Assembly (NCBI GenBank): GCA_026707045.1
Contig: JAPOXO010000087.1
Location: forward strand, 1 to 64,000
Origin: Gammaproteobacteria bacterium
Lineage (GTDB): Bacteria > Pseudomonadota > Gammaproteobacteria > Pseudomonadales > Azotimanducaceae
Reading direction: 5' to 3'
Length of the DNA: 64,000 nucleotides
In this document: piece by piece, positions 1-9,143 of the stretch
Position numbering within the stretch: position 1 is the first letter of the stretch
How the letters are laid out: the number at the start of each line of letters is the position of its first letter
The notes under the pieces: generated by a model
Told to the model about the DNA's origin: nothing
The model's database searches: none
Seen by the model: the letters and a program-made list of their open reading frames with translations, nothing else
Made by a program: the position numbers and the translations under genes

Positions 1-1
1 G

Positions 2-1492
2 TTGCTTCAGGCTAAACAAGGCAATGCAATGATGCGATTCGAAGGTCGTGCTGCCTCTCGACTCGAAGCTGCGTTTTGGGATCGCTTAATGCGCCTTCCG
101 TCCGACGTGCTTCAAAGCCAGCCCAGTGGCGACCTAGCGATGTCCGGGATGACTTTTCAGAACCTCCGTGACAAGGTTCAAGGGTTCGTCGCACAAGGAC
201 TATTGTCGATTGTATTTCTCCTTCCTTTGCTCGGAACGGTCTTTTTGTTTGATGCCACTCTGGGCATTTTCGTCTGCTGCTTTAGTCTAGTCGCAATCTT
301 GGTGACAGTGTGCCTCGGACTACTGCAAGTGTCGCCCCGCGGCCGTATGATCCGAGCGATTCGCAAAGTTGCGGGATTGCTTTTTCAAATCATTGGAGGG
401 ATTTCCAAACTGCGAGTGGAGAATGCGGAAGGGTCAGCGTACGCCATGTGGGCGCAAGACTTTCGCGAGCAGAAACAGGCGGAGCATCAAGTAGGCAACT
501 TAGAAGGACACGCGCACGCTTTTGGAGCTGCACTTCCGTTTCTTGCAGCATCATCGCTAATACTCGTTGTGGCGATTCTTGGTGAGATTGAAATCTCCGT
601 GGCCGAGTTTCTTGTGGTCTATACACTCTTCGTAGCTTTCCAATCTGCAAACGCTCGATTTGGTGAGTCGTTCGGTGCTGTAGTGGCAACGCTACCAGCA
701 TTCCAACAAATGCGTCCTCTGCTCGGTGCGGTGCCAGAGGACGAGACTCTTGGAGAACCGGTGGAGAGTCTTCGGGGAGAGATCTTGTTCGATCGAATTT
801 CCTTCCGTTACGATTCTGAAGGGCCACTGGTTCTTGACGACGTTACCATTCGAGCTCGACCGGGAGAATTCATCGCGATAGCCGGGGAGTCCGGTTCTGG
901 CAAGAGCACGCTATTTAGACTTGCACTTGGTCTTGACCGCCCGACTGCTGGGGCTGTCTATTACGACGGTCGTGATCTCAGAAACCTCAATCTGAAACAG
1001 GTGCGAAGATTAATTGGAGCAGTTCCTCAATCAGTTCTGCTACATCCTCAGGACCTCTGGGACAACATTGTTGCTCATCGTGAGGAACCGACTGTGGATG
1101 AAGTATGGCAAGCAGCACATGCAGCAAGTATTGAAAAGGAAATCAAAGCTATGCCGATGGGATTAATGACCATGGTGGGAGCAGGGTCCGTGCTGTCCGG
1201 AGGTGAGAGTCAGCGAGTGAGTATTGCAAGATCCCTGCTTCGTAATCCACGAGTTTTGTTTCTGGATGAGGCCACCAACTGGCTAGACAACGAAAGTCAA
1301 GCAGAGGTAATGCAGAACTTGGCACTGCTAACTTCGACCCGAATCGTAATCGCTCACAGACTATCTACTTTGGAGCAAGCTGACCGCATTTATGTGATGA
1401 AGACCGGAAAGATCATCCAAAGCGGTTCTTTCGAAGAGCTCATGGATATAGGTGGAGCTTTTAGGGATCTGGTTCGAAGACAGATAGCCTAG
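2..1492 (+). CDS. NHLP-type peptide ABC exporter, permease/ATPase (5' truncated by window edge)
   Basis: Exports a leader-guided peptide across the inner membrane, in the NHLM/NHLP bacteriocin-exporter style. About 496 residues are visible; the reading frame is open to the window edge, so the true start lies outside. The first ~240 residues are the second half of the transmembrane domain, with several hydrophobic helices. The nucleotide-binding domain follows, with Walker A GESGSGKST, Q-loop PQSVLLHPQ, signature LSGGESQR, Walker B RVLFLDEATNWLD and H-loop VIAHRL, so the ATPase looks intact. The gene ends 13 bases before the leader-fused cyclase-like gene, which suggests one operon. Assignment to the NHLP exporters rests on the RLEAAFWDRLMRLP-type membrane-domain start and on neighbours carrying NHLP leaders. 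Any N-terminal peptidase domain or partner exporter would be upstream and is not visible. Confidence 0.85.
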   Translation: MLQAKQGNAMMRFEGRAASRLEAAFWDRLMRLPSDVLQSQPSGDLAMSGMTFQNLRDKVQGFVAQGLLSIVFLLPLLGTVFLFDATLGIFVCCFSLVAILVTVCLGLLQVSPRGRMIRAIRKVAGLLFQIIGGISKLRVENAEGSAYAMWAQDFREQKQAEHQVGNLEGHAHAFGAALPFLAASSLILVVAILGEIEISVAEFLVVYTLFVAFQSANARFGESFGAVVATLPAFQQMRPLLGAVPEDETLGEPVESLRGEILFDRISFRYDSEGPLVLDDVTIRARPGEFIAIAGESGSGKSTLFRLALGLDRPTAGAVYYDGRDLRNLNLKQVRRLIGAVPQSVLLHPQDLWDNIVAHREEPTVDEVWQAAHAASIEKEIKAMPMGLMTMVGAGSVLSGGESQRVSIARSLLRNPRVLFLDEATNWLDNESQAEVMQNLALLTSTRIVIAHRLSTLEQADRIYVMKTGKIIQSGSFEELMDIGGAFRDLVRRQIA

Positions 1493-1505
1493 CAACCGCT
1501 TGCTT

Positions 1506-2807
1506 ATGGACGCTCCTAGAAGCCTATCCAAACTCATTTTGGCGCGTGCAAGTGAAGACCTTGAATTCCGAAAGCGTTTGCTGGCCAACCCCAAACTAGC
1601 ACTGAGGGAAGAATTTGATGTGGTCTTCGACAAAGACCACGAGGTTCAAGTTCATGAAGAGTCTAATTCAGTTACACACTTGGTGCTTCCACCTCAGAGC
1701 AAGTTCACCGCAAAGGAACGGGAAGCAGCAAGAACTGGAGCGACCTCATTAGAGTTTCTAAAGAGGACGATGTACGATCCTGCACCGCCAAGGCGTCCCG
1801 AACCGACAAAACGTTCATCCAAGTCTACAGGGTCTCTCTCCTCGGAGTCATTGGTTTGGTCAGGTCGGGAATCCATCCGTCGCGGCCTGGAATTTCTGGA
1901 ATCAACGGTGGATGAAAATGGCGCATGGCATTGCGTACGATTTAATGTCGCAGATTCAAACATACCGCGCCATTTTGAGAAACCTCCATTTGTTTCTGCC
2001 CTGTGCGTTCTTGCCATCGAAGCCGTTGGTGAGGATAAAGCAAAAGAGCTGCGCAAAAATACAAGCGAATACCTAGTTCAGACTATGGAATATCCAGGTC
2101 TCTGGCGCTACTACCGACACTTGCCACCCGATCTCGACAGTACTGCCCTCTGTTCAATGGTGATTGGGGCCCACCCGTGGATAAGTCTTGGCAGGAGTAT
2201 TCCTGAAATCGTGGCAAACCAAGACGATGATGGTCGGTATATGACGTGGGTTCTTGAGGCTGGTGAGCCAGATGTTTTTACGGGCTTTCGCATTGAAGCG
2301 GACCCGGTTGTCAATGCAAATCTTATCGCCTTCCTTGGAGACTGTCCCGAGACGAGAAAAGCTCAGATGTGGCTAGAGCAATTGATACTTGAAGGCGACG
2401 TCTATGAAGTTTCCAAGTGGTATCCCGATCCACTATCGATCTACTATTCGGTCACGCGGGCGTTCCATCGAGGTCGTCCCGCGTTCAGACGATTGGAGTC
2501 AGTTCTAGTTGAACGAATCTTGGACTTGCGAGATTCATCAGGTGGCTTTGGCAACGTCTTCCAAACAGCCCAAGCAGTATCGGCCCTGGACAACGTGGGA
2601 CATCTGTACGACACGGACAATGAAATGCTGCTCAAACAATTAATCGATTGTCAGCGTGAAGATGGAAGTTGGCCAGAATATCTTGCGTTCGGTGATCTTT
2701 CTATGAAGTGGGGAGTTGTGGGACAATTCGGACACGGATCGGAATCGCTGACATCTGCATTTTGTATCGAGGCTCTGGATCGGCTTGTAGGTTCCCTTTG
2801 TGTCTAA
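1506..2807 (+). CDS. NHLP leader peptide fused to a squalene/terpene-cyclase-like domain
   Basis: Two-part protein of 433 residues. Residues ~1-79 read like an NHLP (nitrile-hydratase-like) RiPP leader and align with the precursor at 8849-9100: both have a D.EFR..LLA.PK stretch, a VHE or IHE turn, and HLVLPP or HLALPP. A Pro/Ser-rich linker (~90-115) follows. Residues ~118-430 are an all-helical prenyltransferase/squalene-cyclase-type repeat domain with DLDSTA at 209-214, resembling the class II cyclase DxDD(T/S)A acid motif with the last Asp replaced by Ser, and a QW-like motif QREDGSW at 383-389. I chose ATG 1506; TTG 1500 would add two residues, and neither start has a clear Shine-Dalgarno. 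Likely a tailoring enzyme that uses the leader as a docking or recruitment domain (inference). The reaction and substrate are unknown. Confidence 0.75.
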   Translation: MDAPRSLSKLILARASEDLEFRKRLLANPKLALREEFDVVFDKDHEVQVHEESNSVTHLVLPPQSKFTAKEREAARTGATSLEFLKRTMYDPAPPRRPEPTKRSSKSTGSLSSESLVWSGRESIRRGLEFLESTVDENGAWHCVRFNVADSNIPRHFEKPPFVSALCVLAIEAVGEDKAKELRKNTSEYLVQTMEYPGLWRYYRHLPPDLDSTALCSMVIGAHPWISLGRSIPEIVANQDDDGRYMTWVLEAGEPDVFTGFRIEADPVVNANLIAFLGDCPETRKAQMWLEQLILEGDVYEVSKWYPDPLSIYYSVTRAFHRGRPAFRRLESVLVERILDLRDSSGGFGNVFQTAQAVSALDNVGHLYDTDNEMLLKQLIDCQREDGSWPEYLAFGDLSMKWGVVGQFGHGSESLTSAFCIEALDRLVGSLCV

Positions 2808-2830
2808 ACACTTAGTTCCGTAGTAACCAG

Positions 2831-2839
2831 TGCTATAAC
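2831..2839 (+). promoter_or_regulatory. possible extended -10 promoter before the AlkB-like gene
   Basis: TGCTATAAC (TG at 2831-2832, TATAAC at 2834-2839) matches an extended -10 element. No good -35 box is seen 16-18 bases upstream. It lies 38 bases before the TTG start at 2877 and could drive internal transcription of the RiPP operon. Confidence 0.3.
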
Positions 2840-2876
2840 ATGAGATTGTTCCTAAGGCGATGAGGTAGAAGCTACT

Positions 2877-5264
2877 TTGACAGAAAACATCGTGGCTGGC
2901 AGCGGAACAGATTCTGCAGAGTCGGGAGACGAGCAGTACATCGAGCCCTCATTTCTCAATGCACTTCCGCACTATTCACCACTGCTCGTATTCCCATTGT
3001 TGCTTTTGGCTTTGTTCTATGGAGGCTGGTGGTTACTCGGACCGTTCCTCTTCATGAGTCTGGCCTCCTTCCTAGATCCAGTATTTGGCGCGGATGGACT
3101 CAACATGAATCCAAGGGGCGTCCATGAGAGATCTTATTTATGGTATAATATACCAGTATGGGCCTGGGCATTCATGTGGCCGCCGACGCTAGTTTTTGGG
3201 CTTTGGCAAATTCTCGTTGCAAATCCATTCGCAATCTGGGAAGACGTGATATTGGCCATTCTTCTGACTATGGAGGCGCAGGCAGTATTTGTGGTGGGAC
3301 ACGAACTTGTCCATCGACGCACAACTTGGGAAAAGAGGGTTGGCGAGTTTCTTCTCTCAAGTGCGTCCTATCCTCAATATGCCACGGAGCACGTATACAT
3401 TCACCACGCAAAGGTCGGCACTCCTCATGACGTGGGTTCTGCGCCAAAGGGGGAGAGTTTTTGGAGGTACTTTCCTCGCGAGGTTGCGAGCAATCTCACG
3501 AATTCGTGGAAAGTAGCTGGTGAACATTTGGCCAGACGCCAGCTATCCCGATGGCATCACAGCAATCCTTTTTGGCGTTACGCGCTAGGCATTGCATTTT
3601 GGTATGGACTGGTCTTTTACATGGGCGGAATTTGGGCTGTTCTAGTCTTCGCATTCCTAGGATTGGGTTGCGTGTTTTCAATGAAAATGAGTAATTACTT
3701 TCAACACTACGGTCTGCGACGCGTACTACTACCAAACGGCCGCTGGGAGAAGATCTCACCGAGGCACTCATGGAATGCGGACTGGAAGTTCAGCAATTGG
3801 ATGTTCTTCAAAATGCAACGCCATGCGGACCATCACTCGATGGCAACTCGAATCTATCCACAACTTCAATACCGTGCTGATGAATCACCTGAACTTCCGG
3901 GTACTTACGGAGACATGATGAATCTTGTCATGCGCCCTAAGCGTTGGTTTGAGAAGATGGATCCTCTCGTAGACCAATGGCGTGCTCGATTCTATCCAGA
4001 GATTGAGGACTGGAGTCCTTACGACAGTTCGATCTCTGCTGCCCGGCCGGACGACTTTGAAGCGATCATTGAAATCTTCGGTGTAGCGCCTCGGCTTGCA
4101 CACAAAATTGAAAGGTCTCCAGAGCTTCTCGACAATCTTAATGTGAGGGAATTTACTGACCTCGATTTACCTAAAGGTTTCTTGTCCGATGATGAATCTG
4201 AATCTATCGCTCGGAGAGGATTGGCAAGACTCTATTGGACGTATGAAATGAGCGTCGAAGAGATGCGAGAACAAATTCAGGAACTACCATCTACGAGCGC
4301 AATTGAGACCGCCGAGATCGTGCGAAATTGGTCGAATGACAAGGCGTTTCAAGTCGGAATGCACGTGATACGACAGAACCTATCGCCCAATGAAGCCACA
4401 GTCGCCCTCTCCAATCTAGCGGAGGTAACACTCGAAACTGTAATTGCTGCAACGGTTACCGAATTTGTCGAGATGGCACAGGCGCAATACAAGGGCGGAG
4501 TTTGTGCAATTGTTCTCGGCGATCTTGCCAGCCGAGATGTTTATCCCGGAGTGGAAGTTGAATTGCTGTTGGTTTGGGACGGTTTTCCAAACAATGTAGC
4601 TAAACGGATGTGGCGGGCAGTTCGTGAGGTACTCACACGACTGTCTAATGACAATTTGGTGCTCTCACCGGTCTTGCGAGCGGGGAACTACCTCGAATCG
4701 CTTTCAATATCTGCTCTCTTGGATCAATTCGGAGGGAACAGGATTCTGAGAGTTCCTGCGATTAGTCGAGCACGAAGTATCTTTGAACACGGGGATTCAC
4801 TGATCAACGAACAATTTTGGGAAGCTAGAAGCAAAATCCTGAGCGACTGGAGAGCCTCGAACCCGCAACTCTCAACATTGCTCGCTCCTTCGTCGACTGA
4901 GGACGAGGGGTTCCATACTCAACGAGGCTTAGTCAACACACTTGATAGAGTTGAAATTGCAGCACGTTTTTTGCATCTAACTGACCGAGAACTTGCCGAA
5001 CAGTCAGCTCCCACGGCCGTTTCCGTTTTTGAACACATTGGTTCCGGTAGCCTGGCTAACAATACTTCAAACTGTCGAGATCTTTTGTGTGCTTCAAGCC
5101 TCGTTTGTGATCACGATTTTGAACTTGCGAATTTGAAACCAAAAACACAGACTTTCATTGCAAACTCCTGCGGATACGAGGATTACGCTTCCCTAAACGC
5201 GGAACTGGCTGAAATTTTCGCCACGATAAATGTCGAGATCAACTCAATTAGAAAGGTTGCTTGA
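2877..5264 (+). CDS. AlkB-like membrane di-iron oxygenase/desaturase fused to a degenerate GlnE-like adenylyltransferase domain
   Basis: A 795-residue fusion. Residues ~25-335 are an integral-membrane di-iron enzyme of the alkane monooxygenase/fatty acid desaturase superfamily. Histidine boxes are HELVH (142-146), EHVYIHH (171-177), NYFQHYG (273-279) and HADHH (316-320), arranged as in AlkB, including TPHD after box 2. Residues ~380-770 resemble GlnE (glutamine synthetase adenylyltransferase): an ERSPELLDNL segment at the start, a nucleotidyltransferase-like strand near 541-568, then an RARSIF..GD stretch and an RGLVNTLDRVEI..FLHL helix. Where active GlnE has SDxDL, this protein has VEVEL, so the metal-binding aspartates look replaced. 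Start TTG 2877 follows GAGGTAG; the stop overlaps the next gene. Likely oxidises, hydroxylates or desaturates the peptide or a lipid partner (inference). The AlkB part is confident; the GlnE part is moderate. Confidence 0.75.
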   Translation: MTENIVAGSGTDSAESGDEQYIEPSFLNALPHYSPLLVFPLLLLALFYGGWWLLGPFLFMSLASFLDPVFGADGLNMNPRGVHERSYLWYNIPVWAWAFMWPPTLVFGLWQILVANPFAIWEDVILAILLTMEAQAVFVVGHELVHRRTTWEKRVGEFLLSSASYPQYATEHVYIHHAKVGTPHDVGSAPKGESFWRYFPREVASNLTNSWKVAGEHLARRQLSRWHHSNPFWRYALGIAFWYGLVFYMGGIWAVLVFAFLGLGCVFSMKMSNYFQHYGLRRVLLPNGRWEKISPRHSWNADWKFSNWMFFKMQRHADHHSMATRIYPQLQYRADESPELPGTYGDMMNLVMRPKRWFEKMDPLVDQWRARFYPEIEDWSPYDSSISAARPDDFEAIIEIFGVAPRLAHKIERSPELLDNLNVREFTDLDLPKGFLSDDESESIARRGLARLYWTYEMSVEEMREQIQELPSTSAIETAEIVRNWSNDKAFQVGMHVIRQNLSPNEATVALSNLAEVTLETVIAATVTEFVEMAQAQYKGGVCAIVLGDLASRDVYPGVEVELLLVWDGFPNNVAKRMWRAVREVLTRLSNDNLVLSPVLRAGNYLESLSISALLDQFGGNRILRVPAISRARSIFEHGDSLINEQFWEARSKILSDWRASNPQLSTLLAPSSTEDEGFHTQRGLVNTLDRVEIAARFLHLTDRELAEQSAPTAVSVFEHIGSGSLANNTSNCRDLLCASSLVCDHDFELANLKPKTQTFIANSCGYEDYASLNAELAEIFATINVEINSIRKVA

Positions 5265-7612
5265 GGACACAAACCGAATCAAATCGGAAACTTCGGATGT
5301 CAGAGGGTCCAGAAACGAAGAAGAATGGAATTCTGGCCAAAACGACCATTGAAGACCGAGGTCTAGTAAAGCTTCCTGCACTTACTCCTCATTTAGAATT
5401 TCACAACATCGGCAATGATCAGACGCTACTGATATCGGAGTCGTTCAATACGCTTCTTCATGGAAGAATTTACACTGACTTGATTCCGCTGCTGGACGGC
5501 AGCAATACGATTGATGAAATAGTCCAGGCTTGCGGAGCCAAGCACGTTTTTTCGACTCTCCTTTCAGCCGTGGACTCACTGTCAACACACGGGTATATAG
5601 TTTCCGCGGATCACTCGTTGGACTCCAGCCGAGCGGCCTATTGGTCATCGCTTGGAGCTTCGCCACGATGGGTTGAGCAAGCACTTGGACACTCACGAGT
5701 CGCAGTTCGCGGAGCAAGTGGCGAGTTGCAACGAAATCTGGAAGTAACCGGAGTCAATGTTGGTGCTGCAAACCCGAATCTCACCGTCCTTGTCTGCGAA
5801 GACTATCTATCAAGTCACTTTTCAGAGGTAAATCGCCGTCATCTTGAGACAGGGGAGCCTTGGTTGTTGGTACGTCCTCGAGGCATCCAACCCATGCTTG
5901 GCCCAGTCTTTCTTGCGGTCAATTCACGTCCATGTTGGACTTGCTTGGAGTTTCGTCTTCGTAGCCATCAGGAAGTTCACGAATTCTTGCGCCACATCGG
6001 CGGCCAAGATGCCAGCTATAAACCACATGCCGAAGAGTCGTCTACTCTACATTGGATCACTGCTCTTGCATCCGCCGAAATTGCCAAATGGATTGTGCTA
6101 GCCGAACTTGCGCCGATACACCAACACACAGTTTCGATCAATCTGGCGACCCTCCAAATTTCCCACCACTTTGTGAGTCGACGACCACAATGTTCAGCGT
6201 GCGGTGATCGAGAGCTAGTTAGACCAGATCGATCCCCTGAGCCGTTAATACTGAAACAAAGACCGACGGCTTGTCACAATAGCGGAGGCACACGAAGTGT
6301 TGATCCCGAAGTGACTTTGGCTAGATATCGTCATCTAGTGAGTCCTATCAGTGGTGTGGTAAGTTGGCTGTCCCGGACTTCCGATGAGACTGACTCTTGG
6401 TTGCATGTATATTGGGCAGGCAGCAACTTCGGAATGAGAAGCCGATCTTTGAGTTCACTCCGACGCAGCCTACGCAGCAAAAGTGCAGGAAAAGGGAGTA
6501 CTCGAGAACAGTCAGAAGTTAGCGCACTATGTGAAGCGATCGAACGCTATTCAGGGTCGTATCAGGGAAGTGAGATTTGCCTCAATCGTAGTTTTCGCGA
6601 CTTAAAAGTGGACGATGCCGCAATCTATCCAAATGATGTACAGTTGTTTAGCGATGCGCAGCTGGAACACGCGGAAGAAATAAACGCTCAAGGGCACCCA
6701 TACAACTTCATTCCATGCCGCTTTGAGGTGGAAGCCAAAGTCGACTGGACTCCGGTCTGGTCTTTAACGCAGCGTAGGCACCGATATCTGCCTACTTCGA
6801 TGCTATATACCATGCCAGCAGAACATAGGGGTCATTCTGATCTGGTAGCTGATTCCAATGGTTGTGCGGCGGGCAACTCAGTAGAAGAGGCAATACTGCA
6901 AGGCTTCTATGAATTGGTCGAAAGAGATGCTTTTGCGATTTGGTGGTACAACCGCCTCAAGGTTCCGGAGATTGACATTCATAGTTTTGATGACGACTTT
7001 CTGTCAGGAGCCCGGGACTACTATCACAAAAGAGACCGCGAGATATGGATTCTCGACATAACAGCGGATATCAACATCCCCACTTTTGTGGCACTCTCGC
7101 GCAGACCAAATGCTCAATCCGAAGACATTATCTACGGTGCAGGAGCGCATCCAAATGCACGAATAGCAGCACTGCGCGCAGTCTGTGAATTGAACCAATG
7201 CCTTTCTTGGTTGCCTGGAAACCAAAAACAGTCTGGACTACCAGCAATAGATGACCCACTCGCATTATCTTGGTGGGAGAATGCTCAAATAGACCAGTGC
7301 CCCTGGCTTGCTCCTAGTGCAAATGAACGCATTCGCATGGTTTCTGACTATTCAGTTGTTGAGTTCGATGACATGAGAGAGGAGGTCGAGAAATGCTGCG
7401 CGTTGGTTGAGGAAAAAGGAATGGAGTTTCTTGTTTTGGATCAGACCAGGCCCGACATCGAATTGCCGGTTGTCAGAGTTATCGTTCCAGGTATGCGTCA
7501 CTTTTGGGCTAGATTTGCGCCCGGACGCTTGTACGACGTGCCAGTTGCTATGGGAAGGTGCCAGCATAGTCTCAAGGAAAACGAATTGAACTCCACACCT
7601 GTGATCGCGTGA
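5261..7612 (+). CDS. fused TOMM cyclodehydratase (RRE/docking E1-like C domain plus YcaO D domain)
   Basis: A 783-residue azoline-forming enzyme: it binds the leader peptide and uses ATP to cyclise Cys/Ser/Thr side chains on the backbone. Residues ~45-115 look like the RiPP recognition element. Residues ~170-320 form the E1-like docking part with a CWTC (225-228) and CSAC (311-314) pair that fits a structural zinc site. Residues ~355-783 are YcaO, with ATP/Mg motifs EVSALCEAIERYSG (~419-432) and a later EAILQGFYELVERDAF stretch. The end (STPVIA) lacks the proline-rich PxPxP tail of many azoline-forming YcaO proteins. TTG 5261 overlaps the upstream stop by four bases (TTGA) with AAAGG just before; ATG 5297 is an alternative start. 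A nine-base gap separates it from the next gene. This identifies the cluster as azole/azoline-forming. Confidence 0.88.
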   Translation: MRTQTESNRKLRMSEGPETKKNGILAKTTIEDRGLVKLPALTPHLEFHNIGNDQTLLISESFNTLLHGRIYTDLIPLLDGSNTIDEIVQACGAKHVFSTLLSAVDSLSTHGYIVSADHSLDSSRAAYWSSLGASPRWVEQALGHSRVAVRGASGELQRNLEVTGVNVGAANPNLTVLVCEDYLSSHFSEVNRRHLETGEPWLLVRPRGIQPMLGPVFLAVNSRPCWTCLEFRLRSHQEVHEFLRHIGGQDASYKPHAEESSTLHWITALASAEIAKWIVLAELAPIHQHTVSINLATLQISHHFVSRRPQCSACGDRELVRPDRSPEPLILKQRPTACHNSGGTRSVDPEVTLARYRHLVSPISGVVSWLSRTSDETDSWLHVYWAGSNFGMRSRSLSSLRRSLRSKSAGKGSTREQSEVSALCEAIERYSGSYQGSEICLNRSFRDLKVDDAAIYPNDVQLFSDAQLEHAEEINAQGHPYNFIPCRFEVEAKVDWTPVWSLTQRRHRYLPTSMLYTMPAEHRGHSDLVADSNGCAAGNSVEEAILQGFYELVERDAFAIWWYNRLKVPEIDIHSFDDDFLSGARDYYHKRDREIWILDITADINIPTFVALSRRPNAQSEDIIYGAGAHPNARIAALRAVCELNQCLSWLPGNQKQSGLPAIDDPLALSWWENAQIDQCPWLAPSANERIRMVSDYSVVEFDDMREEVEKCCALVEEKGMEFLVLDQTRPDIELPVVRVIVPGMRHFWARFAPGRLYDVPVAMGRCQHSLKENELNSTPVIA

Positions 7613-7621
7613 TACAGTCCC

Positions 7622-8740
7622 ATGGATATTGAAGAGGCAATTTCTGTCACTGAAGAACGCCTCTCGGAAGAGGGCGACTCAATGCGTGACTTGCTGACAA
7701 ATTTCCGTGACAGAATTTCCAAAATACTCATCGGCGAATCGCAGTGGCAGCACATACTCGACTGTGCAGGACAGCTGCCAATTGAAATGGGTGCGTATCC
7801 GTTCGGATTCGAACTACCGTTGCACGAGCCGCTGCCGGATGCAGACTTCGGAGCTTCGTTGGCGAGTAGATCTAGGGCGGCATCACGCTTTCTGGATGGT
7901 CAACGAACTGACCAAACGGATTGGACAGCAAAGTTCGTTGCTAGCCTCTTCAAGAAAATGGATTCGCCTGCTGCATCATTGCGCGAAATTGTCGGTAGAA
8001 AATTGATGCTCGAATACGACATCGGTTCCGCACGGTTGGGTCAAAGGCTCGAACCAGGACTGTTTTTGAGACCCAATGAGCATCCAATTGTCGGAGATGC
8101 TGGTCAGGTGAGAGACGTGCGAACCGTCGTAGATGCTTTAGTTTCGAGCGTCGATTGGGAACGAAATGATCAAGAACGAGCGAATGTGGACCGAGTTTAT
8201 CGGGAACAGCCTGAAGATACCCGAATCGATTCGTTTGGTGTCTTTCCCTCGCGATCTCGATCAATCCGTTTAGCTGTGATGGGATTCAAGACCCAAGACC
8301 AAGTAGGGGAATATCTAAAGGCAATCGAATGGCCCGGACATCCTTCGGCGGTGCAATCCGTACTAGCAAGATTTTCGGAGCGGACGAGTGTCTCCAGGAT
8401 CGGAATGAATGTTGATGTCCGGGAGAGCGGCGTGGGCCCAAAACTTGGCCTTGTCCTCATTGTCAAGCAACGCTACACGAAAGACTCGAGGTATTGGCTC
8501 GACGGTCTTACAGACTGGGATCCGTTCTTAAATGCATTGGATCAAGAAGAAATCGTCAGACCCGAGAAGCTCAAGGAACTGAAACGATGGGTTTCCAAAC
8601 CCGAAATCTTGTTTGCGAAGACGGGCCGTTTTGTATTGATGCGTGGCATTCACCACATCAAGCTGGTGGTGACTAGCGACAGACTGATGCACGCGAAAGC
8701 GTACATATACCTCATACTCTCCGGAGCACTACGCCTCTAG
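7622..8740 (+). CDS. unrecognised protein of the RiPP cluster, 372 residues
   Basis: Not recognised. It starts with ATG nine bases after the YcaO gene, so it is probably co-transcribed and translationally linked. The predicted protein is soluble, with no signal peptide or membrane segment, and has an acidic helical N-terminus (~1-60). The C-terminal third has the most distinctive segment: a GLVLIVKQRY strand, then a LKELKRWVSKPE helix, then RGIHHIKLVVTSDRLMHAKAYIYLIL. The alternation of strands and helices with HIKL and AKAYIYL near the end suggests a compact enzyme or partner fold, but I cannot name it. Its position between the cyclodehydratase and the precursor makes a maturation role likely. 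Possibilities include a second tailoring enzyme or a scaffold. Confidence 0.7.
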   Translation: MDIEEAISVTEERLSEEGDSMRDLLTNFRDRISKILIGESQWQHILDCAGQLPIEMGAYPFGFELPLHEPLPDADFGASLASRSRAASRFLDGQRTDQTDWTAKFVASLFKKMDSPAASLREIVGRKLMLEYDIGSARLGQRLEPGLFLRPNEHPIVGDAGQVRDVRTVVDALVSSVDWERNDQERANVDRVYREQPEDTRIDSFGVFPSRSRSIRLAVMGFKTQDQVGEYLKAIEWPGHPSAVQSVLARFSERTSVSRIGMNVDVRESGVGPKLGLVLIVKQRYTKDSRYWLDGLTDWDPFLNALDQEEIVRPEKLKELKRWVSKPEILFAKTGRFVLMRGIHHIKLVVTSDRLMHAKAYIYLILSGALRL

Positions 8741-8759
8741 AGTCATTCGCACACGCAAA

Positions 8760-8818
8760 TTCGCGCTGTTACTTCGCGAACTGAATTGCTTAAAGTAGAG
8801 TCGGATTTGAGGTCCGAC
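8760..8818. terminator. two hairpins between convergent RiPP operon and precursor gene
   Basis: Two inverted repeats lie in the 108-base convergent gap: TTCGCG (8760-8765) with CGCGAA (8775-8780), loop 9; and GTCGGA (8800-8805) with TCCGAC (8813-8818), loop 7. No clear T-run follows either, so they may act as weak bidirectional terminators or as transcript-stabilising ends. Confidence 0.4.
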
Positions 8819-8848
8819 CCTCTATGGGCTAGTTAAATTTTGCCGAGT

Positions 8849-9100
8849 CTACCAACAGCAACACAAACCGGCAGAAATTGCTTCCATCTGTTCTTCCGTG
8901 ATATTGGCACTCGGCGGAAGCGCTAGATGGACCGTCTGCATGTCGCTCTCGTGTATTTTGATCGTCAACGACTCAGGAATCGTAACTCCCAATTCCTTGC
9001 TGATAGTTGATTTTGGGTCGGCCAAAAGAGCTTGCCTGAACTCGTCATCCAAGACCGATTTCTCAACGATCTGTTGCAGCATTTGTTCGCCACTTCTCAT
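8849..9100 (-). CDS. NHLP-leader RiPP precursor with a minimal Cys-Cys-Cys-Trp core
   Basis: Precursor of 83 residues. Residues ~1-77 form an NHLP (nitrile-hydratase-alpha-like) leader: DDEFRQALLADPK, a KELGV turn, IKIHESD, VHLALPPSANIT and EEQMEAISAG. The end after the Ala-Gly is LCCCW, a core of about five residues with three consecutive cysteines, all potential thiazoline/thiazole positions for the YcaO enzyme. ATG 9100 is chosen because AGGAG (9107-9111) lies six bases upstream; a longer frame reaches 9178 but its extra residues do not resemble a leader. It is transcribed towards the biosynthetic operon from its own promoter. The leader matches the N-terminus of the cyclase-like protein at 1506-2807, tying the two together. 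Cleavage after Ala-Gly is inferred. Confidence 0.85.
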   Translation of the reverse strand: MRSGEQMLQQIVEKSVLDDEFRQALLADPKSTISKELGVTIPESLTIKIHESDMQTVHLALPPSANITEEQMEAISAGLCCCW

Positions 9101-9143
9101 AGCTCTCTCCTGAGATTCATCTTTAGGGAGCAAGTTTGAAGTA

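Follow-up and report, generated by a model that had tools for sequence, protein, structure and literature searches.

The srp clusters are reportedly sponge-derived biosynthetic gene clusters for proteusins, a type of ribosomally synthesized and posttranslationally modified peptide (RiPP), described by Nguyen et al. in JACS in 2021, and the abstract of that paper is said to count them with the natural-product clusters found most widely in sponge microbiomes. The parts of two papers available to us (PMC10858898, PMC10286304) give LCCCW as the core of the SrpE precursor, have SrpC convert the three core cysteines to thiazolines and SrpI brominate the C-terminal tryptophan at indole C6 in a leader-dependent manner, and name no final srp product; in the same part of PMC10858898, the leucines of the SrpE LXXXXL motif are Leu67 and Leu72. 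The present analysis concerns a window of 64,000 nucleotides, comprising bases 1 to 64000 of contig C31 from assembly G000 (3.34 Mb in 143 contigs, ∼95% complete) and starting at the contig edge. Six genes at positions 1 to 9100 make one unit, which is almost certainly a member of the published srp family. In addition to the precursor, the cyclodehydratase, and an exporter, they encode a protein with a predicted ABBA prenyltransferase fold, a putative class II terpene cyclase with a leader-like domain of its own, and an AlkB-type oxygenase.

What is new here is a coherent reading of these unexplained srp genes as a terpene branch, which we do not claim to be unreported. A literature survey limited to titles and the beginnings of abstracts found no report that srp or any other proteusin involves prenylation, a terpene cyclase, or AlkB; it did not extend to the 2021 srp paper. 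Our proposal, in which we have slightly less than even confidence when all of its parts are taken together, is that a class II terpene cyclase is dedicated to the srp RiPP pathway, which may be the first of its kind in this respect, and that the products are ribosomal meroterpenoids: a hidden ABBA enzyme would prenylate, the leader-domain cyclase would close rings, and AlkB would oxidize.

Precursor, cyclodehydratase, and brominase

The precursor gene (8849 to 9100, minus strand, with AGGAG upstream at 9107 to 9111) encodes 83 amino acids that begin with a nitrile hydratase-like leader peptide (NHLP) of the proteusin type, scoring 66.4 bits against TIGR03793 (cutoff, 50.9), and end in ISAG/LCCCW, the slash marking cleavage predicted at the proteusin small-residue site. 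Matches to NHase_alpha correspond to this leader, and an identity as nitrile hydratase was rejected. The core codons lie at 8852 to 8866, also on the minus strand. We file the cluster under srp because the precursor ends in LCCCW, the published SrpE core, and a gene combination that an initial annotation of this DNA had not recognized thereby finds its place in a described family.

Relatives were collected by searching genome_contigs with the YcaO protein of the cluster, and the best 80 loci among 200 relatives were kept for counts; many of these counts are lower bounds, and some loci are short contigs. The precursor search covered 89 loci and gave 74 matches in 72 of them, 67 of which end in LCCCW. 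Where SrpE has its two leucines, the precursor in the window carries I67 and M72, and each of the 68 related matches that are 83 amino acids long has I, L, or M at position 67 and L or M at position 72. Two loci that also have an LCCCW precursor hold a second, diverged one, with the core WCCCGN at L045:17257-17502 and the core MCCCGI at L090:16269-16514.

The cyclodehydratase (5261 to 7612, plus strand) is a fused YcaO protein with an N-terminal leader-binding region, as expected of srp, and is SrpC-like according to profile matches (TIGR03604, 262 bits; TIGR03882, 133.9 bits; PF02624, 316 bits) and not by comparison with the SrpC sequence. It is the only PF02624 match at an E value of ≤0.001 in the assembly, and its closest relative among the 80 kept loci, with 70% identity, comes from a gammaproteobacterial metagenome-assembled genome, going by the record title (L042). 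No azoline dehydrogenase was matched among the six cluster genes, the rest of the genome not having been searched for one, and the heterocycle is, as far as is known, a thiazoline rather than an azole. Of the earlier expectation of a small, azole-bearing, and perhaps lipid-like or oxidized product, the small size and the possible lipid-like, oxidized character still stand, and for azole one should read thiazoline.

A search of the assembly with PF04820 gave two genes, one on contig C60 and one on C140; neither C31 nor C39, the latter considered below, had a match. Over 424 residues, the C140 protein has 66% identity to a halogenase found next to the cluster in a relative (L081), and it is through this comparison that we call it SrpI-like; the C60 protein is ∼22% identical. 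In the 13-kb stretch fetched from C140 no other cluster gene was seen by eye, and the brominase is probably kept unlinked from the cluster in this genome. The window cluster resembles srp in its NHLP precursor with an LCCCW core, its YcaO cyclodehydratase, its relatives in many bacterial phyla, and the putative SrpI-like brominase of its genome, and it differs in having that brominase on another contig and none beside the cluster. In the fetched flanks of the relatives, a brominase was near 47 of the 80 loci. The idea that brominase and AlkB are mutually exclusive variants was rejected, 37 of the 59 loci with enough flank for a linkage count holding both.

Three putative terpene-side enzymes

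The gene at 7622 to 8740 (plus strand) encodes a protein of 372 amino acids that had been left without an assignment; no Pfam or NCBIfam family matched it at an E value of ≤0.1, and a profile search of PDB sequences returned nothing. An AlphaFold2 model built from a 38-member alignment has a mean pLDDT of 91.3, and its secondary structure reads as five helix-strand-strand-helix units, the arrangement of an ABBA barrel. Foldseek against the PDB gave 51 matches at an E value of ≤0.001, the best being 5ynw (3e-6), and every one of the 50 matches listed is a prenyltransferase or a dimethylallyltryptophan synthase (FamD1, AmbP3, EpzP, CloQ, DMATS, PagF, and others), which we take to share the ABBA fold. 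In the predicted model, then, the protein has an ABBA prenyltransferase fold, and the assignment is a call on fold, since the TM-scores of the listed matches are modest (0.39 to 0.57) and the identities are 8 to 14%. It is like FamD1, AmbP3, CloQ, and PagF in its five predicted alpha-beta-beta-alpha units and unlike them in its greater length, its low identity, and its want of a family match. K127, R216, K347, and Y361, compared by alignment and not by superposition with a solved structure, are kept in 38 of 38 members. Of the 15 positions with basic or aromatic residues that were checked, 14 are kept in 37 to 38 of 38, and the fifteenth (position 281) is Val in the window protein. Conservation of this kind, seen in the alignment, would fit a diphosphate site.

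The gene at 1500 to 2807 (plus strand) joins an NHLP leader-like domain (amino acids 9 to 68) to a class II terpene cyclase beta domain (approximately amino acids 115 to 434). As a single protein the leader-like domain scores 40.8 bits against TIGR03793, under the cutoff; the family profile matched the NHLP structure 8tb1 (E value, 5e-7) and nitrile hydratases too. The mention of NHLP leaders in the plural in the initial annotation was therefore apt, one being on the precursor and one, below cutoff, at the N terminus of the cyclase. Its terpene-cyclase-like domain was also well seen: the domain matched the drimenol synthase 9mhs by profile (E value, 1e-6), and Foldseek with the structural model (pLDDT of 80, the five models ranging from 66 to 80) gave AsDMS (E value, 1e-11), squalene-hopene cyclases, and MstE. 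A LanC-like identity of the toroid was rejected, no LanC being among the 50 Foldseek matches listed.

D211 and D213 of the window cyclase align with D331 and D333 of AsDMS, and Y308 aligns with Y427, in an AsDMS numbering assigned in this analysis and anchored by the D333N chain 9m7d, which reads N at the D333 place. All three residues are invariant in 33 of 33 family members, and in AsDMS the replacements D331A/N, D333N, and Y427F led to complete loss of activity, according to the part of PMC12365925 available to us. Judged from the aligned sequences, the DxD acid motif and the activating tyrosine are a class II (proton-initiated) active site, and cyclization itself is predicted. The cyclase, a predicted alpha/alpha barrel, has the beta-domain fold of MstE and of AsDMS, an HAD-TCβ protein in that part of PMC12365925, but in place of an HAD phosphatase domain it carries the NHLP leader domain, and its substrate is presumably peptide bound. 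Going by their titles, the MstE structures hold farnesyl or geranylgeranyl dihydroxybenzoate, in which the chain is already on an aromatic ring. An NHLP leader domain on a tailoring enzyme would be an unusual route for bringing an enzyme to a leader-guided assembly.

The third gene (2877 to 5264, plus strand) encodes an AlkB-type domain (approximately amino acids 50 to 368) followed by a GlnE-like nucleotidyltransferase domain (approximately amino acids 460 to 735). The family profile matched the alkane 1-monooxygenases 8f6t (E value, 2e-64) and 8sbb (E value, 1e-49), and the nine motif histidines of the di-iron site are invariant in 27 of 27 members; the Pfam label of fatty-acid desaturase was rejected on the histidine motifs and the 8f6t match, which bear out the oxygenase named in the initial annotation. 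The C-terminal part matched GlnE 3k7d (E value, 4e-11 for the whole sequence and 4e-9 for the best stretch). Of its catalytic acids, the first position varies freely and the second is D or E in most, not all, of the 27 rows, and because of this variation we read the domain as degenerate; an active GlnE-like adenylyltransferase was rejected because the catalytic DxD acids are not conserved. The window protein therefore shares the domain and the nine histidines of 8f6t and 8sbb and differs from them in its added C-terminal domain, which is cluster specific among the 194 genomes compared below. No rubredoxin was matched within the fusion protein, and the genome was not searched for one. A domain related to the AlkB-fused one was seen at the C terminus of an AcrB-type RND pump of genome G076 at L144:6857-11416 (minus strand; PF03710 E value, 2e-11).

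Gene order and the contig break

All of the genes named in the initial annotation are present in the unit, which is as compact as described. The five plus-strand genes are separated by 7 bases, by 69 bases, by an overlap of 4 bases, and by 9 bases, and because these gaps are so short they are likely one operon. The window starts at the contig edge, and the first gene (2 to 1492, plus strand) is therefore cut: the NHLP exporter reported there is present only as the C-terminal half of an NHLM_micro_ABC2 permease/ATPase, truncated at its 5' end and covering TIGR03797 positions 192 to 686, a break that had been missed. The N-terminal part (TIGR03797 positions 2 to 185) lies at the very end of contig C39 (G000:C39:9-563, minus strand), where it is followed by an NHLM_micro_ABC1-type exporter with a C39 peptidase (TIGR03796, 845 bits against a cutoff of 853; PF03412, 2e-35) and, further on, by a short, weakly HlyD-like gene (TIGR03794, E value of 3e-4, 20 bits). 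We infer that the two parts join, because their TIGR03797 positions are complementary and the gene order in relatives agrees; no exact end overlap of at least 9 bases between C39 and C31 was found. The order of exporter, cyclase, AlkB, YcaO, prenyltransferase-like gene, and precursor on the opposite strand recurs in relatives; in some variants AlkB occupies another place in the locus, and in others it was not found. Neither a tRNA nor an Rfam family reaching its gathering score was found in the window.

Occurrence in relatives

In the fetched flanks of the 80 loci, the prenyltransferase-like gene was present at 77, the precursor at 69, the cyclase at 67, and the AlkB domain at 64. The corresponding numbers for the 59 loci with enough flank were 58, 53, 55, and 50, with a halogenase at 43. 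Record titles place the relatives in seven phyla (Pseudomonadota, Acidobacteriota, Gemmatimonadota, Nitrospirota, Nitrospinota, Binatota, and Latescibacterota), and the median identities of the jointly occurring genes are near 60%. Only one title names a sponge (L121, Spongia), and most of the other loci are presumably sponge bins. Recent free transfer between phyla was rejected: the YcaO tree needs 9 phylum changes, against a minimum of 6 and a shuffle mean of 29.1. It appears mostly clustered by phylum with few switches, on one quick tree and bin titles that may mislead.

In an order-wide comparison of 194 genomes of the same order as G000, 19 had any YcaO match and 5 had one of at least 53% identity; the same 5 hold the full AlkB fusion and the prenyltransferase-like protein, and 4 of the 5 hold the cyclase. 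Three further genomes (G100, G034, and G058) have a nearly full-length YcaO, 28 to 35% identical, with no other cluster gene in the 20 kb fetched around it. Some AlkB match occurs in 83 of the 194, nearly all of those in the 78 beyond the cluster genomes ending at or before residue 407.

Core type and gene content were compared at the 69 loci with a readable core. A cyclase is nearby at 58 of 65 loci with a core ending in Trp and at 0 of 4 without, which suggests, from gene content, that cyclase action goes with a Trp in the core; 5 of the 7 Trp-core loci that lack it have less than 3 kb upstream of YcaO. The Trp-less loci (L099, L102, L114, and L120; cores LSCCL, LSCCM, and LCCCGF) have neither cyclase nor brominase, and all four keep the prenyltransferase-like gene.

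Proposed pathway and alternatives

We slightly favor the view that the srp product is a thiazoline pentapeptide modified further by prenylation, ring closure through protonation, oxidation, and bromination; for prenylation plus cyclization on the peptide, we regard the case as evenly balanced. The SrpC-like YcaO protein would turn the three core cysteines into thiazolines, and the SrpI-like brominase would brominate the Trp indole at C6. The ABBA-fold protein would place an isoprenoid on the leader-bound peptide, most likely on the Trp indole, the NHLP-fused class II domain would protonate the terminal alkene of the chain and close rings, and AlkB would hydroxylate or otherwise oxidize an unactivated carbon of the chain. 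The exporter with the C39 peptidase would cut after the SAG motif and export a small meroterpenoid peptide bearing bromine and thiazolines. We put prenylation before cyclization because diphosphates of the drimenyl type have ceased to be allylic donors. The closest parallel is the drimentine pathway, in which, in the part of PMC6173783 available to us, a Trp-containing dipeptide is prenylated and then cyclized by protonation, the logic proposed here for srp; it differs in using a cyclodipeptide synthase, a phytoene-synthase-like prenyltransferase, and a membrane cyclase, where srp is ribosomal.

Several observations weigh against this pathway. The chemistry of all three putative terpene-side enzymes is predicted only, from sequences and models, and the prenyltransferase call comes from fold alone, with no family model. 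The prenyltransferase-like gene is missing at 3 of the 80 loci (L111, L115, and L121). Among the 71 loci whose flank upstream of YcaO measures 4.8 kb or more, 13 have no AlkB domain nearby; one of the 13 (L097) is cut by a contig end inside the fusion, and three others have less than 3.3 kb downstream. In view of these loci, the oxidation step may be dispensable or supplied in trans. Two loci with Trp cores and 10 kb upstream (L044 and L103) have no cyclase. On the Trp-less side, the link between Trp and cyclase is drawn from four loci; three of them (L099, L102, and L114) seem closely related, and upstream of YcaO L114 offers no more than 73 bases. The brominase is probably unlinked to the cluster in the G000 genome. 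The prenyltransferase-like gene is kept at the four Trp-less loci, and such genes also occur in L143, a second cluster in genome G076 that has no recognized YcaO, so that the prenyl substrate need not be Trp. The L143 genes and the GlnE-like domain of L144, found outside the cluster, speak against exclusiveness.

One alternative is a plain srp cluster that makes nothing beyond Leu-tris(thiazoline)-(6-bromo)Trp. The protein with the ABBA fold and the cyclase-like one would then be noncatalytic scaffolds or leader-binding helpers, and the NHLP domain a docking mimic. Thiazoline formation and bromination are the only modifications reported in the available parts of PMC10858898 and PMC10286304, and fold identity is no proof of activity. 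We nevertheless consider this unlikely, given the invariance of the cyclase catalytic residues and the near-invariance of the ABBA-fold positions described above, since an acid-Tyr set would not be expected to persist in scaffolds. It is about as doubtful, in our judgment, that the same three enzymes act with a prenyl acceptor other than Trp, namely, a Cys-derived residue, the N terminus after cleavage, or the C-terminal carboxylate. In favor of this, the prenyltransferase-like gene is kept beside the Trp-less cores and in L143, an MbnB-type cluster with the endings ECIC, VCQC, and CACM, and Cys is common to every core seen, those of L143 included. Against such an acceptor, the best fold matches are indole or aromatic prenyltransferases, and at the loci whose core can be read, cyclase and brominase were found to accompany only Trp cores. 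The idea that lipid genes for alkane degradation or terpenoid synthesis lie beside a RiPP cluster by chance and are unrelated to it, to which the commonness of AlkB homologs might lend color, receives almost no credence from us and is already contradicted: the genes occur jointly under seven phylum labels, and the full AlkB fusion is confined, among the 194 genomes, to the 5 with the cluster. The AlkB fusion and the cyclase are accordingly not found mostly without YcaO, and the grouping proposed in the initial annotation holds. Ordinary AlkB, lacking the C-terminal domain, in many genomes is no objection because it is another gene than the fusion.

Should prenylation and cyclization take place as proposed, the products may already be known as sponge compounds of uncertain origin. 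The predicted prenyltransferase and class II cyclase turn the question of the product into a mass spectrometry search, for which the calculated [M+H]+ values are 573.177 for the tris-thiazoline LCCCW core, 777.365 with a C15 prenyl group, and 871.270 with 79Br and O in addition.

Related clusters and neighboring genes

L143 (G076:C21:26001-46000) is an NHLP cluster with three precursors ending in GGECIC, GGVCQC, and GGLCACM. It encodes an MbnB/TglH/ChrH-type enzyme with a DUF2063 partner, a methyltransferase, an NHLM ABC1/ABC2 pair, and two prenyltransferase-like paralogs (32% and 30%). L036 (G137:C23) is a divergent cluster in which a YcaO of 53% is accompanied by an AlkB fusion (46% in one half and 36% in the other) and by a tandem pair of prenyltransferase-like genes; it has no cyclase and no recognized precursor, and a gene for a flavin amine-oxidoreductase is found upstream.

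The flanks of 30 of the 80 loci carry genes for an MMPL pump, a LolA-like lipoprotein-sorting protein, or an outer-membrane-like protein (weak DUF1302, below cutoff), a hint that such a set could handle lipid-like cargo; it was seen in relatives, the G000 genome not having been searched for it. A Rieske ring-hydroxylating oxygenase is encoded near the srp locus L033 (L033:16022-17200), and the same type is found near 7 of the 80 loci (L049, L063, L068, L079, L081, L096, and L098), that of L068 being only 30% identical.

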